Shown in pieces: positions 691-31,422 of a DNA stretch of 31,432 nucleotides; position 1 is the first letter of the stretch; every line of letters begins with the position of its first letter. The DNA comes from a virus. The translations under genes were made by a program, and so were the position numbers. A model generated the notes under the pieces. It had not been told where the DNA came from. It saw only the letters and a program-made list of their open reading frames with translations, and made no database searches. The stretch is from positions 1 through 31,432 of the IMG/VR virus record IMGVR_UViG_3300009176_000062; one strand, 5' to 3'.

Positions 691-1853
691 AGTTATTTGT
701 TGAACAGACCGCTGAAACAGCCTCACCAGACATTTTTAGGAAGTGGGCTGGAATAGCAGCGATCGCAGGAGCGATGGAAAGAAAGATATGGGTAGTCTCT
801 AGGGGAACACCTTTATTCCCAAACCTTTACGTCATGCTGATCGGGCCACCAGGAGTGGGCAAGTCAATCATACTTGCTCGCATTAACCAGCTGTGGGGTT
901 TTCTCCAAGAGCATCACAAGGGCTCGTCTTCGTTAACTCGAGCCTCATTTATTGATGAGCTTGATGGAGCAAAGCGTAAACAACTGTTTGGACCTGGACC
1001 CTATGAAGACTACAACTCACTCACAGCAGCAATCAGCGAGATGGGCGTTCTCCTCCCAGCTTACGAGCACGCCTTTATGTCCACTCTCACCGACATCTAT
1101 GACGGAACTCCATATAGCGAGAAACGACGCACAAAGGAGCTGTCAATCACAATCGCCAAGCCTTTTTTTAATCTGGTGTGTGGCTCTACCCCTTCTTACC
1201 TCGGAAAATTCATGCCAGAGGGTGCTTGGGATCAGGGTTTTATCTCCAGAAACATCATGGTCTACTGTGGAATCAGTGAGCCTCGCAATCCCTTCGAGTC
1301 ACCAGCCAAGATCGAGTTGACTGGACTCATAAAAGACCTGCGCTTGATTGGCGACCAGCGAGGTGAACTAGTCTTCTCAAAAGAGGCTTCCACCGCCTTG
1401 GTAGCTTGGGTACTCAGTGGTGGTCCCCCCACTCCCGACCATCCCCGTCTGGCCTCCTACATCCCCAGAAGAACTGCCCACCTCCTGAAGTTGTGCATGG
1501 TGTGCGCGGTAGCCTGGGGTGCTTCGCAGGTGATAGAAATCCAGCATTATCAAGAGGCTCTCGGATGGTTGCTCGAGGCTGAGGCTTTGATGCCCGACAT
1601 CTTTAGGGCCATGCTCAAGGGTGGGGATTCTCAAGCGCTCCAAGACTGTTGGCACTTTATTTGGAAGATGAATGGGCGGACGGGTCAACCAGTTATGGAG
1701 AGTGTGGTAGCCCTCTTTTTGAGCGAGCGCGTCCCTGCTCATAACGTCGAGAAGCTTATGCAGCTCATGGTCCGAACTGGTCATGTCGAGCACATCCTCA
1801 CTCCTAGTGGACACAGAGCATTCAAGCCCTTGCCCAAACCACAGGACTTCTAA
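660..1853 (+). CDS. P-loop ATPase, helicase-like replication protein
   Basis: 397 residues from a GTG start overlapping the polymerase by 31 bases; AAGGA at 647-651, 8 bases upstream, supports this start. A Walker A motif, GPPGVGKS, lies at residues 62-69, after a segment (RKWAGIAAIAGAMERKIWV) typical of phage primase/helicase-like and DUF3987-type ATPases. The acidic pair in FIDELDG may contribute to nucleotide binding. No zinc-binding or TOPRIM primase domain precedes it, so it looks like a helicase or loader half working with a separate primase or none. The family is inferred from motif and layout; the exact role (replicative helicase versus other DNA ATPase) is not established. Its stop codon overlaps that of the convergent tail gene by 4 bases. 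Confidence 0.72.
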   Translation: MENGRGRSWIELFVEQTAETASPDIFRKWAGIAAIAGAMERKIWVVSRGTPLFPNLYVMLIGPPGVGKSIILARINQLWGFLQEHHKGSSSLTRASFIDELDGAKRKQLFGPGPYEDYNSLTAAISEMGVLLPAYEHAFMSTLTDIYDGTPYSEKRRTKELSITIAKPFFNLVCGSTPSYLGKFMPEGAWDQGFISRNIMVYCGISEPRNPFESPAKIELTGLIKDLRLIGDQRGELVFSKEASTALVAWVLSGGPPTPDHPRLASYIPRRTAHLLKLCMVCAVAWGASQVIEIQHYQEALGWLLEAEALMPDIFRAMLKGGDSQALQDCWHFIWKMNGRTGQPVMESVVALFLSERVPAHNVEKLMQLMVRTGHVEHILTPSGHRAFKPLPKPQDF

Positions 1854-2251
1854 ACCCACTTATCGTTCGCTTCGAGATCAATGAGCCTCTGTGTCATCTG
1901 CTGATCAATGAAGCGACCGTAGTCAGCCGCCGCTTCAATAACCTCTGGATAAAACGCTTCTTGATTGATGATCTCAACTGGTTGAACAAGGGGGACTACG
2001 CGCTGAACGCGGACTCGCCAGCCGGGAGGAACCGGGTTGCCCGAAAGGGGATAGACGACGTAGCCACCAGTCGGAGAGCCTATCCCCACCACCTGATAAT
2101 CAGCAGGCGCGATGTTGTTCAGCGCTCCGGTTGCGTCTTTGGTCTTGAGTTGAAGATGACTCAAGTCCATTATCGGAAAGTCGAACGCCCACTGAGTTGT
2201 CGCGCCATTCCCTAAGTAGGTGGCGGCTGATGCTTGAGTGGCAAGGGTCAT
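1850..2251 (-). CDS. Stand-alone tail-fibre N-terminal (T7-tail-like) domain protein
   Basis: 133 residues; last gene of the late block. The sequence follows the head/tail-binding N-terminal domain of T7 gp17-like fibres: an early NGATTQWAFDFP segment, a GGYVVYP strand, a GWRVRVQRVVP strand, then an EAFYPEVIEAAADYGRF helix ending in QQMTQRL. In T7 this domain continues into a long fibre shaft; here the protein stops after LEANDKWV. It may be an adaptor that docks a separately encoded fibre to the tail, or the stub of a shortened fibre. AGAGG lies 7 bases before the ATG. The other fibre genes are more than 20 kb away. A 31-bp repeat lies just upstream (2263-2293). Confidence 0.8.
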   Translation of the reverse strand: MTLATQASAATYLGNGATTQWAFDFPIMDLSHLQLKTKDATGALNNIAPADYQVVGIGSPTGGYVVYPLSGNPVPPGWRVRVQRVVPLVQPVEIINQEAFYPEVIEAAADYGRFIDQQMTQRLIDLEANDKWV

Positions 2252-2262
2252 TTTTCTACCTC

Positions 2263-2293
2263 TGGTATGGCTGGATAAATGGTTTATCCAACC
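2263..2293 (-). repeat. 31-bp dyad element, copy A
   Basis: Read on the minus strand this matches the plus-strand copies at 17680-17710 and 31221-31251 across 31 bases, varying at only four aligned columns. Its core is an inverted repeat with 11-bp arms (one mismatch) around a 3-bp centre, followed by a conserved CCATACCA on one side only. It begins 7 bases after the stop of the giant ejection gene and ends 12 bases before the start of the next gene. No T run follows, so it is not an ordinary intrinsic terminator. Operator, phage promoter and RNA-hairpin roles remain possible. Confidence 0.8.
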
Positions 2294-2299
2294 CTCTCT

Positions 2300-5200
2300 T
2301 TACCTGTAACGCATTTCATCTGCTGTCAGCGGCCGCGTCCCACTTGTACTCCGCCTCGAGCCAATCGGTGTCGAGCGACCATAAACAATCAACCTTCTCC
2401 ACTCCGTGAAGTTCCTCGGAGGTGGCACTTCCCCTCTTTGTATCCGCTGCGCCTCTTCAGCCCATCGACCCATCTGCTTCGACGTCAGCTTAACTCCAGC
2501 AAACACTCCGAGAAGCTCGAACGATGTTTGGAGTGGTGGTATCCAAGTTTCCATCTTACTTGCATCAATCTTCGTCGCGTACTTCTTCACATCCCGCATC
2601 CATCTTCTCGGAACATCAAGTGCCGCCGTCAGTGGAATACTTGCTCTGGCGTACTCTCCATGAAGCAAAGCATAGGAAGCCTCTTTAACGAATGGAACGA
2701 AAGTTGTTCCTAACCCTGCCAACTCCTTAACGGCCGTCACTCCCCAAGGATCATCCTTATGTGGCTCACCTCTAATCAAAGAGTGGATAAAAGCAAGCGC
2801 TCCTACATAAAACACCCCTGCCGAAAATGCAGTGAAACCTGCTCCTCCCATTGACTTTCCCATCTCAGAGAAGGTTTGCATTGTCTCTTTCGCAGCTCGA
2901 TCAGCAAACGCTTGTTTAACATCTCTTACATCTTCCGCAACCTTGAAGCCTTTGACATGGAGCTGGTTGACGACGTGGTTGAAGAAGCCATAGAACTGAG
3001 CGAACGGTCGGAGGGACTTGTCGATGTTGAACTGTGATTTGTCCATCAAATTCGACGAGTTATGAGCTAGACGAACGAGCTTATCTCCATAAAGCGCCGC
3101 ATCAGTATGACTCATTCCTTCCCGTTCACCCTTTAAGTAACCGGCCCACCAAGCAACTGTCGCCGTCATATAATCTGTGTAAGCGATCTGCAGTTGTCCT
3201 GCATACTCGCTGTTGTGTTGGAATGACTCCCAATTCGACCACTGCCCAAGCGAGTAAGCAATGTCCCTTTTCTTGTCCTTCATACGAGTCGATAGCTCAG
3301 CTGAGTTCTCAAGCGCAAAGCCCGTCATCTGATCCCAATTACTCTTCGACCTCGAGATCGTTCCCCAGGCATCCATTAGCTGAGAGTCACCAACTGCCAG
3401 TCTAATAGCCTTAAATGTGTCAAGCCCTGCTTCGCCGATAGTGTTCATCATCGCAGTTGGACTGTGAACAAGCATAGTTCCCGGATTAAAGCCAATCACA
3501 TTCGAGATTGTGTTTGACTGTAGCTTCCCCATCCACCAGCGGAAAGCGTTCGCTTGGACAAGATCTGCTCTCCCTCCATCGCTCGCCATTCCAGCAAGCC
3601 AAGGCTTGAAGAGATCAGCTTGACCCTTGCCAAAAGCCTTAAACACAGTATCATAAAAGTTCTTATCATTGATTATCTTCGCTGCATTCTGTACCGCCTC
3701 CCTATGCGTCAGCTCGTGAATGTCTTCCTTAATCCTGTTCGGAAGCTCATCAAAATTCAGCGTCAGCAAAATGTTCTTGCCTTCTCGCTGTTCTTTGGCA
3801 GTTTGCCTGTGTGAGTTGGCTGGCAGTGGATCAAAAACCCTGTTGTCAATCAAGCCACCAACTTCACTCGACTTCAGCCCTTCAATCCCTTCTTCTCTCA
3901 GCTTCAGTATCGGGAAGTAACCGCCCTTTCGATTAACTCCATGCGCGTCAATGAAGCCGACTGGTTCAGGATACTCCATCCCGAACCCTCGAGTCCGCTG
4001 ATACACCCCATCTCTAATTGGGTTCAGTTTCTTCTCATACATATCCCAGATGTTTTGAACGAAGTCCCAATTCTCCTTCGTCATATTCTTCGCAAGCCAA
4101 GAGCCTATCGTCGTCTTATCAGAGTTTAGTGAGTTCGCCATCATATCTTGATTGTGGGCGTTCCCCCAATTAAGCGCCACCATAAGCATTTCATCTCGTC
4201 TAAACTCCCTTGGCTTTCCATTCGGAGCTATGATCGAGTCATTCGGGACTGTTCGCTTCAGTGTATCTACTCTCGCCCCCTTAACTCCAGCCCACTCTCC
4301 ATGATCCACTGTCTTCAGATACTTCGCGACATCAGCCGTTACCTCATTTTTCCACTTTTGAGCAAGCTTGAGTGGCTTAATCAAAACTCTGTTCATAATC
4401 CCGTCAGGGTCAAGTCGATCAATCTTCATCGTGACCGTCTCAACTCTTAACAGGTTGGCGATCGACCCGCGCCACTTTGCAGCGATCCCTCTTTCTGGCT
4501 GGATGGGATCACCATACTTCTCATAACCGCGTGCTTCAGCCAAGTCAGCCACTTGTGCCTTTACTGTATCAAGCACTTGATCAAGCTCTAACTGTTGTCC
4601 CTTCTCGCCAACGAGCTTTTCATTCTTTCCAACGAACTCCATCGCCCGCAGCGTGTCATTGAACTCTTTGAAGTTCCCAACATTCATCTTGCTTAGATCA
4701 TCAAGTCGTTCAACCTTTTGTCCTAAGTAAGTCGGCGTTGGGATTGTATCTGCATTGTTAAGCTCATTTCGATCCTGAATCCACTTCCCAAGATCAGGCT
4801 CCTTAAGCGAGGCAATATCCTTCTCGAGAACTCGCAAACCACGAGCGCCTGGATTAAGGCCTGACATCGCGATTAGCTGGAGCATCCGCGTGTTAGTGTC
4901 AGGATCAAAGTCCTTAGCTCTCGCAATGTTCGTCACCTTGTTAACCAGACGTTGACTAAGCAATACTTCTCTCTTATGCTCTTGTCCCCACTTCGCCATC
5001 ATCGCAGACTGCATCTGGAGTCTTTTCTCGTTGAGGGCCGTCAGCAAGTCTCCCGCATCCTTAGCCTCTTTCGACAAGCGTCCATGCCGTCCAGCATTCT
5101 GTTGGAAGGTCTTTGTATCGGTCGCTTGAGCATTCGTCATCTCCCTCATACTCGAGTCGACGATCTTCTTCATATCAGGTAGTTGAATTAAGTCTGAGCC

Positions 5201-11600: not shown

Positions 11601-12210
11601 ACCATCCACCCCGTCTCGCCTTTTCCGCTGACTCTCCATCAATGACCGCGAAAGCGTTAGTCAAATCATCTGGGTTCATCGAGGTCGCCGCCTTACTCGA
11701 GGCCGCATCTATTCGAGCGTCACTCACCTTATCTCCATACTTAAGAATCTCCCCTTCCTTATGCTTCCACGAAGCACCAAACGAGCTGCGGATATGACTT
11801 TCAGCACTTGCGCCAACCATTCGCTCAATGCGCTTATTCCCGCCCGCTGCCTTCAGTGCATTCGCCTTGATCTCCTCTCTTCTCTTCTCGTTATCATCCC
11901 AGCCATTAACAGCATCTTCCCCGCCCTTCAGCCGATACTCAGTATCTAACTTAGTAAACTCCTTATACATATTAGTGTCGATCTCACGAGCCTTCGTTTG
12001 TTCCAGCTCATGTTTATTCTTCTCTTCAATCGCCCCGAAGGTCGCTCCAAGCTGCTCAAGCGTCCCACCAAAGTTCTTGAGCGCGGCCCCGACTTGGGAG
12101 CCAAACTGTTCATCACTTACCTTAATGTTTTGCCATGCTGTTGGAGGCGCGTTCGACTCAACAGTCGGCACCCCCGTATAAGGTACATTCAATAAAGATG
12201 CTCTTGGCAT
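8650..12210 (-). CDS. Ejection protein with lytic transglycosylase-like and M15-peptidase-like domains
   Basis: 1186 residues. A helical N-terminal third leads into a Pro-rich linker (about 281-330), then a module common in phage virion proteins (about 353-425: STNIDGKEVLLPTIING, TGEHLG, ALHKRQEQKY), then a KPET repeat (432-445). Residues about 493-600 look like a lysozyme/SLT fold: candidate catalytic Glu520 in YHSEGSAGY, then SWGPFQLY. Residues about 667-775 look like an M15/VanY-type zinc peptidase: HxxGxAxD at 715-722 (His715, Asp722) and a third ligand, His768, in KVHVG. The C-terminal 400 residues are charged and helical. The likely role is to cut both glycan and peptide bonds locally during DNA ejection. 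Domain calls rest on motifs; activity is inferred. Gene position matches T7 gp15. Confidence 0.83.
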   Translation of the reverse strand: MPRASLLNVPYTGVPTVESNAPPTAWQNIKVSDEQFGSQVGAALKNFGGTLEQLGATFGAIEEKNKHELEQTKAREIDTNMYKEFTKLDTEYRLKGGEDAVNGWDDNEKRREEIKANALKAAGGNKRIERMVGASAESHIRSSFGASWKHKEGEILKYGDKVSDARIDAASSKAATSMNPDDLTNAFAVIDGESAEKARRGGWSPEQTEVFANDRRAQTASAFIGNVAKHYPDVAQKYFDQNQEVLKLHPGAFKAAEDAISKGFAGKDTASKGSDLINGTKPKLEERRPIPPRPPDPTGPLKLRVPLPATGPKTEAPKEEKKVAAADLEEPLKKPAGLAEKGNIDIDKRKVLKNADGSFSTEKSFSTNIDGKEVLLPTIINGKEVSQEEAVKHFKKTGEHLGKFDTPENANAYAEALHKRQEQKYGPGAETKPETKPETKPGAKPPVAPDRHKVTEREYPPEETEISAARRTYAVGPTGTPNHAIPGYTAGSAEVEHYVVNAARARGIDPGTALRVYHSEGSAGYKSSIPGENSWGPFQLYTGGGLGNEFQKETGLDPSDPKNWQATVDYALNKVIELGWKPWNGAKAVGITGYQGVANDARPVKVGEDIHHEDPVDFEEESDKPIPLKDRSVIAYSKAQQTGDLTVKPKEGSRLILAQKGRIRGLDLHPKLNSALEDAAAASGVFIRVTSGGQTSDRNPSRKDQPGGWTGSHRHDDGRAADVDILDENGRNITDRNDPRRLAFLKEAAKRGAGGTGTGYMSDNLKVHVGITGASGEIGQGLGVYSRQSTAKELAAVEEGLKEAGITPSIARGGGSDRIDGSGPVRLAAYHSGATMSDAPPPEATAGTRFAQATVNAPRTPQLDGPLTAKSTDADLEARIKNMKDEARALGHDDSYGENIAAQARSQFATMKRTENELDKNAKDEMGRLVYGDGKEEGIKDFSAITDDPKKLEKFQRLSGPEQATMRAHIQKNATEAWGPVSSEQLDNWDNLVANAPHDPSMLENIDMSKIHPQLRARVMKLREDVLKGGGASTMEAQRVDKILSSPDVEWQLKRAGLFEKNEKGKDVEGPDYKEFRAKFTGQLRYWQESNPGKGGPKQEDINLMVNSLIRKIDQPPEKTWYGGKREVPSRPFFKTPLSVQESNQVVNQWNERNPSRPAATVDDIPPEAIWHWRNSVNKRSGSWQP

Positions 12211-12219
12211 TTACGTCTC

Positions 12220-12735
12220 CTAGGAGAGCAAGCTCCCACCACCCGAGTCACTACCCCACTTCCCAGCAACCTTTCCGAAGCCACCAAGCAACGAAGAAAA
12301 AGCGTTCAGCATCCCCGCTTCTTTCGCGTGTTGGGCCTGCATTTTATAGAGTCCTGATTGGGCTTTTTGGTTCGTCGCTTCAACATCAAAGCCCCACGCC
12401 TTTCTTTCAGCGTTCGATTGTACAGTAAGAGCATCCAATCGCGCCAGTTCATTTTGACTCGCTATCACTTCTCTCGAGGACCCACTTTCAATATCAACTC
12501 CAGAGGCTCCCAAAACCGCCTTTTGCGTCCCAAGCGTCTGCGCTGCCTTCAAGTCTTGTTGCATCGCCTTAGTCGCACCATCTTGTCTCGACAGGTTCGC
12601 CTGTTGCAGTGCAATAATCTCGTTGTTCCGCGCGACCTGCGCTTGATAGTTCGCAGCGTCCGCTTGTGCTTGGCCTTGTTTCATAGCGCCAATGGCGCTA
12701 ACAACTCCGCCTATGATGCCAATAGCGGCTGCCAT
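12220..12735 (-). CDS. Internal virion protein, gp14-like
   Basis: 171 residues (T7 gp14 is 196). It opens with a hydrophobic segment (AAAIGIIGGVVSAIGAM) followed by a QGQAQADAANYQAQVARNNEIIALQQAN stretch and long Ala/Gln-rich amphipathic helices, the typical pattern of the podovirus core protein that forms an outer-membrane pore during ejection. The Gly/Ser-rich end (WGSDSGGGSLLS) is also common in the group. It lies between the gp13-like gene, which it overlaps by 25 bases, and the two large ejection proteins, as in T7. Confidence 0.83.
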   Translation of the reverse strand: MAAAIGIIGGVVSAIGAMKQGQAQADAANYQAQVARNNEIIALQQANLSRQDGATKAMQQDLKAAQTLGTQKAVLGASGVDIESGSSREVIASQNELARLDALTVQSNAERKAWGFDVEATNQKAQSGLYKMQAQHAKEAGMLNAFSSLLGGFGKVAGKWGSDSGGGSLLS

Positions 12736-13232
12736 CCGTCATCTCCTCTCAACCAAGTAAGCTTTTCGTTCGAAAGCGCCTCTTTCGTTAACTCATAAGT
12801 CTTAAACTTTATTCCATACATCCTCGTCACACCAGTCTGCTTAAACCCAATATACTGAAGCCACCTTTGGCTTATATCACTCCGAAGCGGGGCAATAACG
12901 CTTAGTCGATCGTACTGTCCGAGCAATTCCTCGAGAAACAAAGCACTTACTCGAACGAAGGTGACCCAATGCTTCTCAACTAGCTCCGTCGTCAGCATCC
13001 AAATGTAAGCGTGATTGCTGACAATGCTGACCATCCGCACTCCATACATCACACCCAGCTGTCCGTCTGCGTAGCCACACCAAACATCTCTCGAGCCCTC
13101 GACAGCCTGCTTGAGTCCTTGCCCCTCCATATCAGCAACGATCATAAGCTCGTTTCGTGAGAACTTCCTGAGGTTCTTGAGAATCAACTCAATGTCCTCA
13201 GGCGTCGCTTTTCTTCTCTCATAAACAGTCAT
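12711..13232 (-). CDS. gp13-like internal virion protein with GNAT-like fold
   Basis: 173 residues, starting at an ATG that overlaps the stop of the tail tube B gene. The pattern (MTVYERRKATPEDIELIL start, then a GYADGQLGVMYGV strand pair, and WLQYIGFKQTG near the end) matches the acetyltransferase-like proteins that occupy the T7 gp13 slot. In T7, gp13 is needed for assembly of the inner core and is not known as an enzyme, so catalysis should not be assumed. No clear acetyl-CoA pyrophosphate loop (Q/RxxGxG/A) is visible. The C-terminal EKLTWLRGDDGWQPLLAS tail is a likely partner-binding end. Confidence 0.75.
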   Translation of the reverse strand: MTVYERRKATPEDIELILKNLRKFSRNELMIVADMEGQGLKQAVEGSRDVWCGYADGQLGVMYGVRMVSIVSNHAYIWMLTTELVEKHWVTFVRVSALFLEELLGQYDRLSVIAPLRSDISQRWLQYIGFKQTGVTRMYGIKFKTYELTKEALSNEKLTWLRGDDGWQPLLAS

Positions 13233-15835
13233 CAGTCATCCCCAATCGTGGCCTCGGGAATAACAGCAACTATGTTCGCGGGCAATCCAGCTTTTGATCG
13301 AACGCAGATCTGCCCATCGGCCTCCCACAGTGGGTCCATGATGATCCGAAGATCACCTGAATAGAGTGAGGGTGTCTCGCCTGAGAGCACCGACGGTTTT
13401 AATTCCTTTATCTCCGTCAGCGTATTAAAAGTCATCCCCGCCGACAAGCCCCTTGAATCAGCTACTCTCACCGTCAGCGCCGGTATCTTCTTTCGTCGGC
13501 CCTGGATTGTCGGTTGGGACTCAAGTCGAAGCGTCTGGAGATCAGCTTGATAGCCAAGCCCAATAATCACACTTGATCCCGGTGCATCCAGTGTCACCTT
13601 CCCAGCAACAACCTTCTTATCCGTCTGTAGCTTCCCATCAACAACCACAGTAACTGTCATTCCTTCAAGATGGCCAAGGCCGCTGACTGAACTTACAGGA
13701 TACGAGGCTTTCCAAGTCCCGGCCGCTTGCTTAGCCATATGCCGATCACCAGACTCTTCAACGACAAAAGTGTCTGTTGGTGGGACAAGCATTGTTGTCA
13801 TTATTGAAGAAGCGTTGTAAACAGTGTGGACGCGGAACTTGCCTCCACCAGCACGAATCTCATAGCCAATCCAATTTTGGTTAAAGATCGCTCCACCAGA
13901 AGTGTATAGATAGACGTTGTTCTTGTCTGAGAGTGATGAGCTATCTAATGAATCACCTCCAAGATACATTGGGAGTGACAAGGCACAATCAAGAAACCAA
14001 GAGTCTTCAATCGCCCGTTGAAAGCGTGGTTGGAACTGCTCAATAGTCAGCATCCGTTCGCCAGTCGGCAGTACACGCTCGACCGCAGCATACACTACAT
14101 CTCTTATCCCCTCTCTAACACAGCCGACAGCCCTGTACGATCCTTGGGTGCTATGCACGGCCCAACCAGCCACTTCCTGATCCTTCAGAAAGGTTAAACT
14201 CAGCAACACTCCATCATCCCTTACAACCCAAATAACTTTATCCGGCTCCTCTGCATAGCACCAGCTTTTGATTGTGTGGTTTGAGAACAAGTGGCTCGAG
14301 AGCACAGTCACATCTGCGCCTGTGTAGATGTTTGCGAAGAAGTTGTAGCTGAGATTTCTGACAATGGAACCGTTCACTTGGATGAACAAGATCTCATAGC
14401 CAATAACTATCGGGGGAAGGTCAGCACAACCGTTAAAGGCCTGAGGTGTCGCCATCACTTGTGTCGGAGTGACTGGTGCGAACTGTTGCGTACCACTGAG
14501 TTGCCATGCGCCGCCAGAAGTGAGCATCACCAAGCCACCTGGCATTGGGATCATGTACTTGATGGCATTCATCTGCTGTGAGGCAAGGGTGAACTCAAAT
14601 GAGTCGCCGTCGTTGATTGGAGTGCTTATGTCAAAGTTGTGGTAAGCACCTGGCTTCGATCCCCACACTGTCGAGGGATCGTTTGTTGTAGCTGCAAACA
14701 AAAGGCGTTGCTGAAAGTAGGCAACAGCCCCTGGATAAGTCCCTGTCTGCGCGCCAGTCTCTGCTACTGCGGCAGCCCCTTGTCCAACCCCATAGTCAGC
14801 AAAGTTAACGGTAGGTGAGCTATAATAACCACCTCCAGCGTCAATGTTGACGCCCATAACAGCGCCGTAAGTAATCATTGGAGTAATAACAGCACCACCA
14901 CCTGTCGCATCAGTTATCCAGCACTGTGTATAGTTGTCGTAGCCGGAGCCATTCGCCGTTACAGTAACTTTAACGATTTGAAGTGGTGTAAAAGGGTCTC
15001 TGTGTTGTGGAGGTGACCTCGTGAAGTTAGGTAAGATATTCGTATCAGTATAGACTTGGGCTCGAGTGCTCCCAACAAAGCCCATCCTCATTCCATTAGT
15101 TATCTGTGCATTGGCACCTGAAGTCGCTTTGTAGACGTTGTAATAATCAGCGCCAGGAACAGTTCCCCAAGTGATATTTATCGTCACTCTGTGTGCCGAC
15201 ATATCAAGCGTATTGTCCATTCGGGCGATCGGACTTAGCAATCCTTCAGTACCATCCTTTCCAACAGCTGTTATCGCATATCCATAGTTAACATAAGCGG
15301 CCGCAGCCGGATCAATGTATCCAGTCGCCGACGCTGAAAGTCCGCAGCCACCCGACACACCAACCTCAGAACCAATATTAAAACCTCGACCACGCCAATC
15401 AGTGTGACCATAACGGACTATCTCTATTATCTGATAGTTTGGATGCACAATAGTCAGCGTGTCACCGCTTTGAGTCCACTTCAGCTTTGGCAGATCATAC
15501 CAGTTCCAATATCCAGTAATCTGGTAAATGTTGTTACCTCCATCAACAACATAACCGCCTCGTGTTATAAAGCGGATGTAACCATGACCCACCTCAAGCA
15601 AATAAGTCTGATCATTGTTGAAGACGAAAGGGATGAAGATAACGTCTAAATTCCAGTAAGGTGCCCTTCCTACAAATCTTGTTCCTCCCCGCTTACTCGC
15701 ACCCCCTCTAAAATCAACGAGGAAGTTGTGCATCTTAGCTGCGCCGATCTTATACTTGTTAAGATCGACTCGACCAAACATAAGCGGAGAAAGTTCACCC
15801 GCCGAAAATGACGACTGGATGACAGGAGCTGCCAT
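13232..15835 (-). CDS. Tail tubular protein B / nozzle protein, gp12-like
   Basis: 867 residues (T7 gp12 is 794). The N-terminus IQSSFSAGELSPLMFGRVDL, followed by a GGASKRGGTRFVG segment, is the hallmark of podovirus tail nozzle proteins (SAGE-L-SP, then a GG--RRPGT-F motif). The rest is beta-rich and Gly/Tyr-rich, with repeated fibronectin-like strands at about 175-290 (VNYGYAITAVGKDGTEG, then YYNVYKATSG), as expected for a nozzle with insertion domains. It follows the gp11-like gene with a TAATG stop-start overlap, so the two tube proteins are probably made in a coupled manner. Confidence 0.9.
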   Translation of the reverse strand: MAAPVIQSSFSAGELSPLMFGRVDLNKYKIGAAKMHNFLVDFRGGASKRGGTRFVGRAPYWNLDVIFIPFVFNNDQTYLLEVGHGYIRFITRGGYVVDGGNNIYQITGYWNWYDLPKLKWTQSGDTLTIVHPNYQIIEIVRYGHTDWRGRGFNIGSEVGVSGGCGLSASATGYIDPAAAAYVNYGYAITAVGKDGTEGLLSPIARMDNTLDMSAHRVTINITWGTVPGADYYNVYKATSGANAQITNGMRMGFVGSTRAQVYTDTNILPNFTRSPPQHRDPFTPLQIVKVTVTANGSGYDNYTQCWITDATGGGAVITPMITYGAVMGVNIDAGGGYYSSPTVNFADYGVGQGAAAVAETGAQTGTYPGAVAYFQQRLLFAATTNDPSTVWGSKPGAYHNFDISTPINDGDSFEFTLASQQMNAIKYMIPMPGGLVMLTSGGAWQLSGTQQFAPVTPTQVMATPQAFNGCADLPPIVIGYEILFIQVNGSIVRNLSYNFFANIYTGADVTVLSSHLFSNHTIKSWCYAEEPDKVIWVVRDDGVLLSLTFLKDQEVAGWAVHSTQGSYRAVGCVREGIRDVVYAAVERVLPTGERMLTIEQFQPRFQRAIEDSWFLDCALSLPMYLGGDSLDSSSLSDKNNVYLYTSGGAIFNQNWIGYEIRAGGGKFRVHTVYNASSIMTTMLVPPTDTFVVEESGDRHMAKQAAGTWKASYPVSSVSGLGHLEGMTVTVVVDGKLQTDKKVVAGKVTLDAPGSSVIIGLGYQADLQTLRLESQPTIQGRRKKIPALTVRVADSRGLSAGMTFNTLTEIKELKPSVLSGETPSLYSGDLRIIMDPLWEADGQICVRSKAGLPANIVAVIPEATIGDD

Positions 15836-17205: not shown

Positions 17206-17646
17206 TTAGTTTGTGACCACGATACCAGGCCGGTACGCAATGTTCTGCTGACGATCGAGAATGATGCCAGCGGTGAGCTTCCCCGCGGTCATCGGGCCAG
17301 TACCAACGAGGTAGTTGAGCCGAAGATAACGGGGGAGAGGATCGTTCGGGTTCGGGCTTGGCACATCAATCTGGAACGGGTTTTTGCCCGCCTGAAGCTG
17401 TGCCAGTGTCAACACGGCCGACTCAGCGTAGGTCGTGAAGGTAGAGTTATCGGCCGAACCCTGGAACTGTACCTGAAGCGTACCAGCACCAGTCGCGGTG
17501 AAGTTCTCAGTCGGTTGCACGAGGACTTCCAGCGGGTAGCCGGGTCCCATGTCTCTCGCGTTCAGAAGGTCGAGCACGTTGGCGCTAACGCCAGATGCTG
17601 TGATTGCGCTGTTGTTGTCAAACAGCAGAAGTCCGTCCAAGATCAT
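17206..17646 (-). CDS. Bbp16-like capsid decoration/cement protein
   Basis: 146 residues, directly after the major capsid gene. The pattern matches the Bbp16 family of BPP-1: an early hydrophobic LDGLLLFD segment, LNARDMGPGYPLEVLV, a GSADNSTF turn, then PRYLRLNYLVGTGPMTAGKLTAGIIL near the end. In BPP-1 this protein decorates and stabilises the capsid shell. GGAG lies 8 bases before the ATG. Copy B of the 31-bp element sits in the 68-base gap between this gene and the capsid gene. Confidence 0.78.
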   Translation of the reverse strand: MILDGLLLFDNNSAITASGVSANVLDLLNARDMGPGYPLEVLVQPTENFTATGAGTLQVQFQGSADNSTFTTYAESAVLTLAQLQAGKNPFQIDVPSPNPNDPLPRYLRLNYLVGTGPMTAGKLTAGIILDRQQNIAYRPGIVVTN

Positions 17647-17679
17647 CTTTCGTCTCCATTCGGGTCAAGTGTTAGGTGT

Positions 17680-17710
17680 GGTTAGATAAACCGTTTATCC
17701 AACCATACCA
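17680..17710 (+). repeat. 31-bp dyad element, copy B
   Basis: Plus-strand orientation, so opposite to local transcription. It begins 5 bases after the stop codon of the major capsid gene. The same 31-base pattern as copies A and C, with GGTTAGATAAA and TTTATCCAACC arms around CCG, then ATACCA. T7-like phages often have a terminator after the capsid gene, but no T run follows here on the minus strand. Confidence 0.8.
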
Positions 17711-17714
17711 GCTA

Positions 17715-18758
17715 CTAGACGACCCTCGCTTCGTTGTTGAGGATGGCGTCACAGGTCTTGATCGGTATTCCCCTGAACGTCGTGCAAACCTTCCCATCGT
17801 ACTCAGCAATGTCCAACAGGACATTCTTCTTATTCACGGCCTGGATGTCGAGCCAAGTCCGCAGCGTCCGGTTGCAGTAGATTGCAGTCCGACCCATCGA
17901 GTCACTCACCGACGGCGAGTCACTCTTCTGAACCGCCTGTGCCCTCGCCGAAGCGACCGGCAGCTTGTACAAGCCGCGGATCAGTCCAGTCAACAGATCA
18001 GGGGGTGTTGCTCCACTCAGTGTCGTCACGTCGATGTTGCACAGTCGAACGGCGAAACGCCAGTCACGAACCGTCAGCCCACACTCCCACTTAAAGTGGT
18101 CACGATAGGCTTGATAAGTGTTGCCGTTCACGTCGTTCACTGGCCACTCGCCCATGTCCTTGTGTTGCAGCCCCGACATCTTGCCTTTCGGGAAGATACC
18201 GTGGATGGTCTCTGCACCCCAAGTCACGATCCACATCGAAGTGTTCGTGCCGCCGACTCCAGTCATGTCAATGACGTTCGCTGCGGTCTGGGCGTTGGCG
18301 ATGTTGACAGTGTTGTAACGTGGGGCCAGTCCCATGAACCTTTCCGGGTTCACTGAGGTGTTCCCATAGAACACTGTCGCCGACACCTGTTGGTTCATGC
18401 CTTCAAGAAAGGCCTTCACCTCACTGAATCGGAACTCAGGAGTATTACCGTTAAGATCAGCAATATCCTTGTCAACCACGCTGTACGTTTCGAGGTTGCC
18501 ACATGAGTCAGTGATCTGTGCCGTTGTGCTCTTCCCATTTGGGACACCATAGTTGAGCAAGCGCCACGTAGCTGCCGGCAAGCCAGTTCGAACAGTCGTT
18601 CGATGACCTGTCGGCAGGTTGCCTTGGACAAAAAGCATATCGTCCAAGATCTCATTCGTCTGTGACAACAACTCAATGATCGTAGCGATCTTGTAGTTGT
18701 CGTCGACTCGCTTGGCCCAATCAGCAAGGGTCAAGGCAGTTGCGCCGATAACTGGCAT
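17715..18758 (-). CDS. Major capsid protein (BPP-1 Bbp17-like)
   Basis: 347 residues, close to T7 gp10A (345). It lies between the scaffold and cement genes. The N-terminus MPVIGATALTLADWAKRVD, the ILDDMLFVQGNLPTGHRTTVRTGLP segment and the SVVDKDIADLNGN stretch are typical of the BPP-1-type HK97-fold capsid family; the middle FMGLAPRYNTVN and a GLTVRDWRFAVRLCNID segment also fit. A good ribosome site (GAGGAGAATAAACA) precedes the ATG, as expected for the most abundant structural protein. No separate protease gene was seen, so maturation may proceed without cleavage. Confidence 0.92.
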   Translation of the reverse strand: MPVIGATALTLADWAKRVDDNYKIATIIELLSQTNEILDDMLFVQGNLPTGHRTTVRTGLPAATWRLLNYGVPNGKSTTAQITDSCGNLETYSVVDKDIADLNGNTPEFRFSEVKAFLEGMNQQVSATVFYGNTSVNPERFMGLAPRYNTVNIANAQTAANVIDMTGVGGTNTSMWIVTWGAETIHGIFPKGKMSGLQHKDMGEWPVNDVNGNTYQAYRDHFKWECGLTVRDWRFAVRLCNIDVTTLSGATPPDLLTGLIRGLYKLPVASARAQAVQKSDSPSVSDSMGRTAIYCNRTLRTWLDIQAVNKKNVLLDIAEYDGKVCTTFRGIPIKTCDAILNNEARVV

Positions 18759-28607: not shown

Positions 28608-29225
28608 TCATTTCTGATCCTCCGGCTCGCGGCCAAGCAGGCTGCTGTCGGTAGGAGCGGGGACTTGCTTGACCTCGATTGTTAAGGCTTGATTGTGCTG
28701 GGGCCGCTCAGCGCGTTTTCGGGCGGCCTGGAGCTTATCCGCGAATGAGTTCAAGTCCACATTCATGTTCAAGCTTTTGGTGGTGGGCGCGAAGCCCGTT
28801 CTGTCCGCCAGCGTTTTAACCATTTCAAGAAGCGCTCCCGGCGTGAACTCTTCAGGGTGGTCATCAAGTCTCTCACGGAGTTCCTCAAGGGCGTCCATAC
28901 TGAGAGTAGCCATTCGGTCGTGGAGGTTCGCATAAGCGGTGTCCTGATGGCCTCGGTAAAACTCGAGCAACTCCTTGAAGCTAGGATCGCCCTGGAGGAC
29001 GCTTATTCGGCTGAGACTGTAGCCAGTGATCAGCGACGCTTCGCCAGGCTTCATACCGGCTGAGAGCGCTCGAGCGAGGGCGTGATGGCTGTCCCGAAGC
29101 TTCGCGATTGGCCTTGACTGGACTCCGCGTGGGGCGTCGAGCAGCACTAGATCCGCCTCGTTCAACTCGCGAACGAAGTCCGTCTCCACTTCGGGTGCTG
29201 ACGGCCTCCCCAAGATTCGTGTCAT
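28608..29225 (-). CDS. terS: Terminase small subunit-like DNA-binding protein
   Basis: 205 residues from the ATG of MTRILGRPS; GGAGG five bases upstream decides this start over a GTG 12 bases earlier. A helix-turn-helix is likely at about 46-80: LRDSHHALARALSAGMKPGEASLITGYSLSRISVLQGDPSF, a pattern typical of phage small terminases. After it come a helical region (SMDALEELRERLDDHPEEF) suited to oligomer formation and a charged C-terminus for contact with the large subunit. It recognises the packaging site. The start overlaps the phosphatase stop (ATGA). Confidence 0.72.
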   Translation of the reverse strand: MTRILGRPSAPEVETDFVRELNEADLVLLDAPRGVQSRPIAKLRDSHHALARALSAGMKPGEASLITGYSLSRISVLQGDPSFKELLEFYRGHQDTAYANLHDRMATLSMDALEELRERLDDHPEEFTPGALLEMVKTLADRTGFAPTTKSLNMNVDLNSFADKLQAARKRAERPQHNQALTIEVKQVPAPTDSSLLGREPEDQK

Positions 29226-29704
29226 GGCCGCCTCCACTCAACTCTGATAAACTCTCTAATCCCCTCCGACGGATTGTAGCTAGGGTAGTGTTGCTTGAAC
29301 TCGTATTCGCCATCGCTGAAGACCTTACCTTTTCCGAAGCCTCGTTTCTTCCAGAGGAAGTAGAAGGCCATTCCTGGGGCTCGAGAGTGGCCTTGGTTGC
29401 AGTGGATCAAGACGTTCCGGCCTTTCTCCAGTTCGGCCTCGATGAACTCCACTCCGGCGTTCATCATCTCCGGATTGAAGTAGGCGGCATTGATAGCATC
29501 AACCATATTAAGGATCAACTGATCACCCCGCCGAGCCATGAGATACTCTGGATGTTCCCTCGGAGCACCTCGCCCTGTATACCCGAGCGCTTGACGATGC
29601 CACGGCTCCTTCGCACAGGTAAGAAAAGACCAGCCCGCCTCATCACGACAAGCTTCATAATCGGCCTCGTCCCCGACGAAGAGGTGTGGATGAATCTCCC
29701 TCAT
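29222..29704 (-). CDS. Dual-specificity phosphatase-like protein
   Basis: 160 residues. The signature loop HCNQGHSRAP at 101-110 gives the nucleophile Cys102 and phosphate-binding Arg108 of the HCxxGxxR phosphatase superfamily; Asp69 in LNMVDA is the likely general acid. The N-terminus IHPHLFVGDEADYE and the Trp-rich fold around it are typical of small phage phosphatases of this class. The substrate (protein, RNA 5' end, or nucleotide) cannot be read from sequence. Overlaps by 4 bases on both sides couple it to the kinase gene upstream and the small terminase downstream, so the three are made together. Confidence 0.85.
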   Translation of the reverse strand: MREIHPHLFVGDEADYEACRDEAGWSFLTCAKEPWHRQALGYTGRGAPREHPEYLMARRGDQLILNMVDAINAAYFNPEMMNAGVEFIEAELEKGRNVLIHCNQGHSRAPGMAFYFLWKKRGFGKGKVFSDGEYEFKQHYPSYNPSEGIREFIRVEWRRP

Positions 29705-30153
29705 CGGCCCTCCAACTCGAACCAGTTCCTAACCGCGAGCACTTGCTCCGAGCGCACTCGACTCCGCTCGGGATCGGCCTTTATGCGCTCGAACAGCTCT
29801 TCTCTCGTAGCCGTGAGCACAATCAAATCACTGGACTTGACTCCGAGCGCCCTCACCCAGTGCTCCCGTTGCTCTCGAAGCGGAGCGCCCATCACAACCC
29901 AAGCAACGTCCGATGGACTCAGCTGAGCGAGGGCCTTCATTCGGCTTGCCCACTCTCGCATGACGAGGGCGAAGTGAGTGCTTGGCCACCCTCGCTTAAG
30001 CCCGAACGACTGAGCAATGACGTCGAGGTCGATCACAGTGTCACCTGTCTTCGCGTGGACTCGGACGTAAGTCGATTTACCTGAAGCCGGAGGCCCGCAC
30101 ACAAGTATCACACGACAAATAGGACGCTCGATCGAAGGCCGAACAAGACTCAC
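29701..30153 (-). CDS. P-loop kinase (zeta/polynucleotide-kinase-like)
   Basis: 150 residues from GTG at 30153, with GGGAGGG about six bases upstream. Walker A GPPASGKST at 20-28, then a VIDLDVIAQ segment with Asp42 and Asp44 in the substrate-acid position, and a C-terminal arginine-containing lid (ADPERSRVRSEQVL). These features fit small kinases of the polynucleotide-kinase or zeta-toxin group. It is the first gene of the late block, 14 bases after the likely transcription start, and is followed directly by the phosphatase. It may act on nucleic-acid ends or nucleotides; the substrate is not known. Confidence 0.78.
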   Translation of the reverse strand: MSLVRPSIERPICRVILVCGPPASGKSTYVRVHAKTGDTVIDLDVIAQSFGLKRGWPSTHFALVMREWASRMKALAQLSPSDVAWVVMGAPLREQREHWVRALGVKSSDLIVLTATREELFERIKADPERSRVRSEQVLAVRNWFELEGR

Positions 30154-30350: not shown

Positions 30351-30503
30351 TAGGAATGCAGTCTCATAGGACTCGAGTCATAGGTATGCTCGTGGCGCAT
30401 AGCTATCACCAACTCCCAGTTGCAGAGACTGCAGTCCTAGGGATGCAGGCCTAGGACTAAAAGCATATGGGCCTGTAGTCCTACGTCCGAGACTGTTGTC
30501 CTA
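30351..30503. repeat. Array of TAGGACT/AGTCCTA half-sites
   Basis: Seven related half-sites: TAGGA at 30351, TAGGACT at 30367, TAGG at 30381, AGTCCTA at 30433, TAGGACT at 30452, AGTCCTA at 30477 and GTCCTA at 30498. Two of them form a perfect dyad with 9-bp arms, AGTCCTAGG and CCTAGGACT, at 30433-30458. GAGACTGCAGTCCTA (30425-30439) and GAGACTGTTGTCCTA (30489-30503) are 13/15 identical. This looks like a multi-site protein-binding array: regulator or replication initiator. Confidence 0.65.
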
Positions 30504-30521
30504 TTCGAGCAATTAAATTAC

Positions 30522-31197: not shown

Positions 31198-31220
31198 GTG
31201 ATTGTCGGAGTCTTAGAGAT

Positions 31221-31251
31221 GGTTACATAAACCGTTTATCCAGCCATACCA
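31221..31251 (+). repeat. 31-bp dyad element, copy C
   Basis: Same 31-base pattern as copies A and B: GGTTACATAAA, CCG, TTTATCCAGCC, then ATACCA. It lies in non-coding DNA 125 bases past the terminator of the plus-strand gene, with further dyads on both sides. Confidence 0.8.

Positions 31252-31353: not shown

Positions 31354-31422
<69 letters not shown>

Follow-up and report, generated by a model that had tools for sequence, protein, structure and literature searches.

Introduction

Phage P1 carries many C1 operators, asymmetric 17-mers that are dispersed through its genome and controlled by one repressor. The KorB operator of RK2 is an odd-centred inverted repeat with a central G/C and a 6-1-6 layout, and ParB-type helix-turn-helix (HTH) domains read about 16 bp. 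KorB itself acts as a CTP clamp and represses promoters at distances of up to 1.5 kb (PMC11790492). Phage N15 possesses four inverted-repeat centromere sites, IR1-4 (PMC7205306), and the stoperators of the cluster A mycobacteriophage L5 are asymmetric 13-bp sites that are bound by a monomer, number more than 20 per genome and are oriented with transcription (PMC9283540).

Here we analysed a linear virus contig of 31.4 kb (31,432 nucleotides; the window), which is incomplete and starts within a DNA polymerase gene. Protein comparison revealed that its head and tail proteins resemble those of the phiV10/BPP-1 group, with a capsid identity of 55% to Salmonella phage 66FD. The window and its longer relatives carry a symmetric element at five sites, A to E. 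These are dispersed over short intergenic gaps near gene ends and promoters, as are the L5 stoperators, and sites B, D and E abut the stop codon of the preceding gene; unlike stoperators, they are five symmetric 35-bp sites without consistent orientation. The P1 operators are similar in that many operators of one phage repressor are spread through a genome, but differ in their asymmetry. The KorB operators share the odd-centred inverted repeat with a central G/C and occur in several dispersed copies under one regulator, and a ParB-family protein is encoded here too; they span about 13 bp, whereas the half-site here extends to 17-24 bp and its binder is putative. N15 IR1-4 are likewise few near-perfect inverted repeats in a phage genome, but are about 16-18 bp long and serve SopA/SopB partition, whereas no ParA was found among the proteins scanned here. 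The KorB operators and N15 repeats thus appear closer than stoperators in symmetry, although they are shorter.

Results

An earlier note had described a 31-bp, partly palindromic element repeated three times across the window. We found copies at 2263-2293 on the minus strand (GGTTGGATAAACCATTTATCCAGCCATACCA) and at 17680-17710 (GGTTAGATAAACCGTTTATCCAACCATACCA) and 31221-31251 (GGTTACATAAACCGTTTATCCAGCCATACCA) on the plus strand, all written in the orientation of that note, and their 31-base alignment has exactly four columns that vary. When the 25-base core was searched with up to 3 mismatches, the window was matched at these three places only (one of them on both strands), and 100 dinucleotide shuffles gave 0 matches (chance expectation 0). 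The number three is nevertheless an undercount, because the window contig is incomplete and five copies are present in each of two longer relatives. One of these, G001, is a 47.3 kb contig that is near-identical to the window; the other, G002, is a 47.7 kb contig that is more diverged (capsid 91%), and both supply the missing early region. Since G002 continues through the break point of G001, the two ends of G001 adjoin.

Exactly five sites were present in G001, centred on 1481, 7555, 18557, 33695 and 47233. G002 had five sites at the same five gene junctions, with successive inter-site distances that agreed once G002 was reversed. Combined half-site scores were 39-49 for the G001 sites (shuffled genome maximum 6) and, with the same matrix, 13-31 for the G002 sites (shuffled maximum 8), the latter being lower because the G002 consensus differs in its outer part. 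The full set of dyads is known from these two near-complete genomes only; the other element-bearing contigs are fragments. Scans of the viral collection with both versions of the element, together with protein-guided loci, yielded 22 distinct aligned sites, all of which (22/22) fall within one clade. The element-bearing viruses are a group of uncultured podoviruses.

DNA similarity search gave no match to the site among phage isolates or plasmids, and the bacterial genomes gave a single A+T-rich match that had no outer arm of the dyad and was at about chance level. Capsid relatives at about 70% identity had nothing at the capsid junction and no such dyad set elsewhere, de novo dyad searches in relatives G003-G011 and G013 returned no comparable repeated set, and in Caulobacter phage Kuura, a relative by DNA polymerase, the search gave its terminal repeats only. 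One relative, G012 (74% capsid identity), has two dyads with the core ATGGACSGTCCAT and matching outer arms, the same layout in a different sequence. They are located at G012 9628 and 30535 (L140 9628 and L141 10535), one of them inside a coding linker within the ParB-methyltransferase gene, and as a counterpart of the element they are only suggestive. By sequence comparison, the element is found in this clade only among the viral contigs, isolates, plasmids and bacterial genomes searched.

The sites in the window and the features next to them are as follows.

31216..31250, plus strand: site A, 35-bp dyad with centre 31233, within the noncoding control region that precedes the early operon; syntenic copies in G001, G002, L023 and L019
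31056..31085, plus strand: intrinsic-terminator-like site after the rightmost plus-strand gene, upstream of and separate from site A
2264..2298, minus strand: site D, 35-bp dyad with centre 2281, between the giant gene stop and the tail-fibre gene start; syntenic copies in G001, G002, G014 and L148
2300..8662, minus strand: gene on the upstream side of site D, for a giant 2120-aa protein that has an LPD22-like stretch close to the N-terminus
1850..2251, minus strand: gene on the downstream side of site D, for a 133-aa protein that resembles the N-termini of tail fibres
17675..17709, minus strand: site E, 35-bp dyad with centre 17692, between the major capsid gene and the Bbp16 cement gene; syntenic copies in L007, L009, L012 and L028-L031
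17715..18758, minus strand: major capsid protein (phrog_212), gene upstream of site E
17206..17646, minus strand: Bbp16-like cement protein (PF21190, 6.6e-26), gene downstream of site E

All sites are at gene ends or intergenic, and noncoding positions able to hold a 35-mer make up about 5% of the window. The earlier note had placed two copies 5-7 bases after the stop codons of the giant and capsid genes; the copies do follow these genes, but the measured gaps are 6 nt (giant gene stop codon beginning at 2300 on the plus scale) and 4 nt (capsid gene end at 17715). At site D, the ribosome-binding site of the 133-aa tail-fibre-like gene comes directly after the dyad. The order in the control region is terminator-like site, site A, a T21-27 tract and the first early promoter. 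The first early operon ends within or right next to site B, and the TTGACA-17 promoter downstream of this site stands at a variable spacing (10, 22 and 29 nt). Site C follows a conserved TTGACA promoter, whose -10 box and the dyad are separated by exactly 14 nt; as counted on contig sequences, the TTGACA and the 14-nt spacing were invariant in 5/5 contigs with the site (G001, G002, L146, L148 and L149). Through these five junction placements the sites thus separate the first-early, early, replication, tail/ejection and head blocks.

Promoter calls throughout are consensus matches. The early promoters are sigma70-like, and no RNA polymerase family was detected among the early and late proteins scanned in G001 and the window, a scan that a very diverged polymerase could escape; the idea that the element marks promoters of a phage RNA polymerase, also raised in the earlier note, was therefore not upheld. 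No dyad accompanies the exact TTGACA-17-TATAAT at G001 4600, which indicates that promoters in general do not include one, and a promoter-like sequence on the minus strand at window 30202 lacks it as well.

Three further observations were made in this part of the window. T runs of 23 and 27 occur at 31354-31376 and 31391-31417, about 100 bp after site A, and runs of 21-25 T are present at the equivalent place in G002, L023, L019 and L162, indicating that the tract is conserved and that it probably breaks assemblies there. Short imperfect repeats of the type GAGACTGCAGTCCTA cluster at 30351-30504, upstream of the minus-strand genes; they occur in both orientations and are possibly a second operator or iteron set. 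A dual-specificity-phosphatase-like protein (29222-29704) is encoded beside an AAA_33 kinase-like protein (29701-30153), which also matches a PHROG labelled small terminase.

We then describe the architecture of the element. It is an odd-centred dyad of 35 bp, with weak symmetry to 49 bp and a single central C or G, and folding of the 44 copies gave the half-site consensus RTTTATNNRRCMATAYC. Positions 2-6 of the half-site are invariant (44/44 half-sites of the 22 distinct sites); information content showed that positions 7-8 are almost free, 11-17 conserved and 18-22 nearly free, and positions 23-24 (CT) are weakly conserved. The dyad core is ATAAAC-S-GTTTAT, and the outer block is CCATAYC in G001 and CAATAYC in G002. 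L023 has one site of each outer-block type, suggesting that a single protein may recognise either. Within a half-site, the centres of the two conserved blocks are about 10 bp apart, which is one helical turn, as for a protein contacting one face of the DNA helix. This spacing, together with symmetry that reaches the single central base, a feature dispensable for a hairpin loop, points to DNA recognition.

The earlier note had read a direction from CCATACCA on one side of the dyad. We found that the same sequence is present on the other side too, often in degenerate form, so that it gives no reliable direction. The comparison with stoperators made there extends to placement only: the sites are symmetric, there are only five, and the better arm is downstream at A and D and upstream at C and E and so does not follow transcription, leaving the asymmetry and orientation that define the L5 sites without a counterpart.

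Alternatively, the elements could act as RNA, in the form of conserved transcript hairpins with a role in processing, in halting transcription or in stabilising message ends. RNA folding of the three window sites gave z values of -3.3 to -3.8 (A, -3.3; D and E, about -3.7), and sites B, D and E are located at message junctions. Arms within one site match slightly more than arms across sites (283 vs 266 expected, p 0.02), driven mostly by position 12, which changes jointly in both arms; such agreement would be expected from a hairpin or a homodimer site alike. However, at sites B and C of G001 the hairpin is not formed in the lowest-energy structure (z -0.8 and -1.8) despite conservation of their DNA motif, stem positions 2-6 are fixed in all sites, with no exchange for alternative base pairs, and a C.C mismatch recurs at position 7 in G001 sites A-C. 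Furthermore, there was no U-tract after any site, no terminator call at any site and no Rfam match. Because two sites of one genome do not fold, and U-runs and terminator calls are absent, DNA is favoured over RNA and we consider the hairpin explanation rather improbable; the mRNA-processing hairpin of the earlier note fails at the same two sites, even though D and E fold well. An intrinsic terminator likewise found no support, as the regions scanned gave no terminator-like call, with its G+C-rich stem and T-run, at dyads A-E.

Three proteins are candidate binders, two from the first early operon and one from the replication operon. The early proteins, of 146 and 235 aa, are encoded in every element-bearing contig that covers the region and only in element-bearing relatives. 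Searches of other virus contigs, of phage isolates and of bacterial genomes did not detect the 146-aa protein, but this restricted range follows clade membership. Their structure models were weak (mean pLDDT 71 and 60), and the best fold matches were in the chance range: RNA-binding KhpB/R3H-like for the first (Z 5.0, 3.0 A over 64 residues) and Stn1 for the N-terminal part of the second (Z 6.6, 3.5 A over 67 residues). The first candidate had been a Cro/C1-like HTH protein (G001 3873-4151), with 64-69% conservation in G002. L148 lacks it yet carries sites B, C and D, so it is an improbable shared binder.

A reasonable third candidate is encoded at G001 (L105) 12061-13311, where a ParB_N and a ParB-like HTH region are joined to an N6/N4 DNA methyltransferase; it is 81-84% conserved in G002 and L148. 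The dyads might then be loading sites, similar to parS or the KorB operator, from which this protein would slide or spread along the DNA and thereby silence genes, target DNA for methylation or hold genomes apart. The core does share the odd-centred 6-1-6 layout of the RK2 KorB operator, and KorB sets a precedent for a clamp that represses distant promoters. Homologues at 41-49% are nevertheless encoded in G003, G009, G011 and G012, all without this dyad set, the search for ParA gave only a CbiA match (E 0.075) inside an AAA_24 protein, and the length read by ParB-type HTHs falls short of the 35-49 bp seen. We regard such loading sites as unlikely, and as less likely again that the phage uses a partition-type CTP clamp, the ParB-methyltransferase loaded at the five dyads, as a genome-wide transcription insulator or for targeting DNA methylation.

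The location of the sites at module borders would also suit short shared homology or recombinase sites that promote the exchange of gene blocks. Between G014 and G001 (L112 around 6504 against L105 around 18557), the identity of the 150-bp flanks shifts from 61% to 97% across site D and the dyad is identical; the two differ strongly as far as the dyad edge, a recombination join at this site. In most other pairs, however, both flanks are similarly conserved, no integrase, resolvase or recombinase family was found among the proteins scanned, and phages commonly show mosaic joins at module borders in any case, which makes this explanation very improbable. A role in replication, packaging or segregation, as an origin, pac site or centromere, would be consistent with sites spread round the genome, with site A lying beside the conserved T21-27 tract and with the precedent of the N15 centromere sites. 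Without a ParA/SopA gene among the proteins scanned, and with five gene-border sites of which one is locked to a promoter, transcription fits better, and we give such a role very little credence.

Discussion

From the dyads and their architecture, the five syntenic sites and the fixed 14-nt spacing to a sigma70-like promoter at site C, all read directly from the genomes, we infer binding by a protein. We favour, with moderate confidence, the explanation that the element is recognised, as double-stranded DNA, by a putative DNA-binding protein that is symmetric, multimeric and probably encoded by the phage, at five fixed places that separate transcription modules. The dimer operator envisaged in the earlier note fits the symmetry, the invariant core, the blocks one turn apart, the gene-end or intergenic placement and the positions kept in relatives; observations that count against an operator include that not every promoter carries a site and that the spacing from site B to its promoter is variable. 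At site C, the bound protein would cover about +8 to +42 and repress the replication operon. At sites B, D and E, it could serve as a roadblock or insulator and so fix the relative levels of the blocks, for example of capsid versus cement and tail genes; at site A it may act within the control region that precedes the first early operon. The element would then be a variant of the dispersed operators known from other phages.

Collectively, these data point to a control circuit that spans the genome in a clade of uncultured podoviruses and has exactly five symmetric sites, located at module borders. To our knowledge, phage control inside a structural operon is little known outside the mycobacteriophage stoperators, and the circuit includes sites inside the structural operon, between the capsid and cement genes. 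The result is a short list of sites and candidate regulators that is directly testable.
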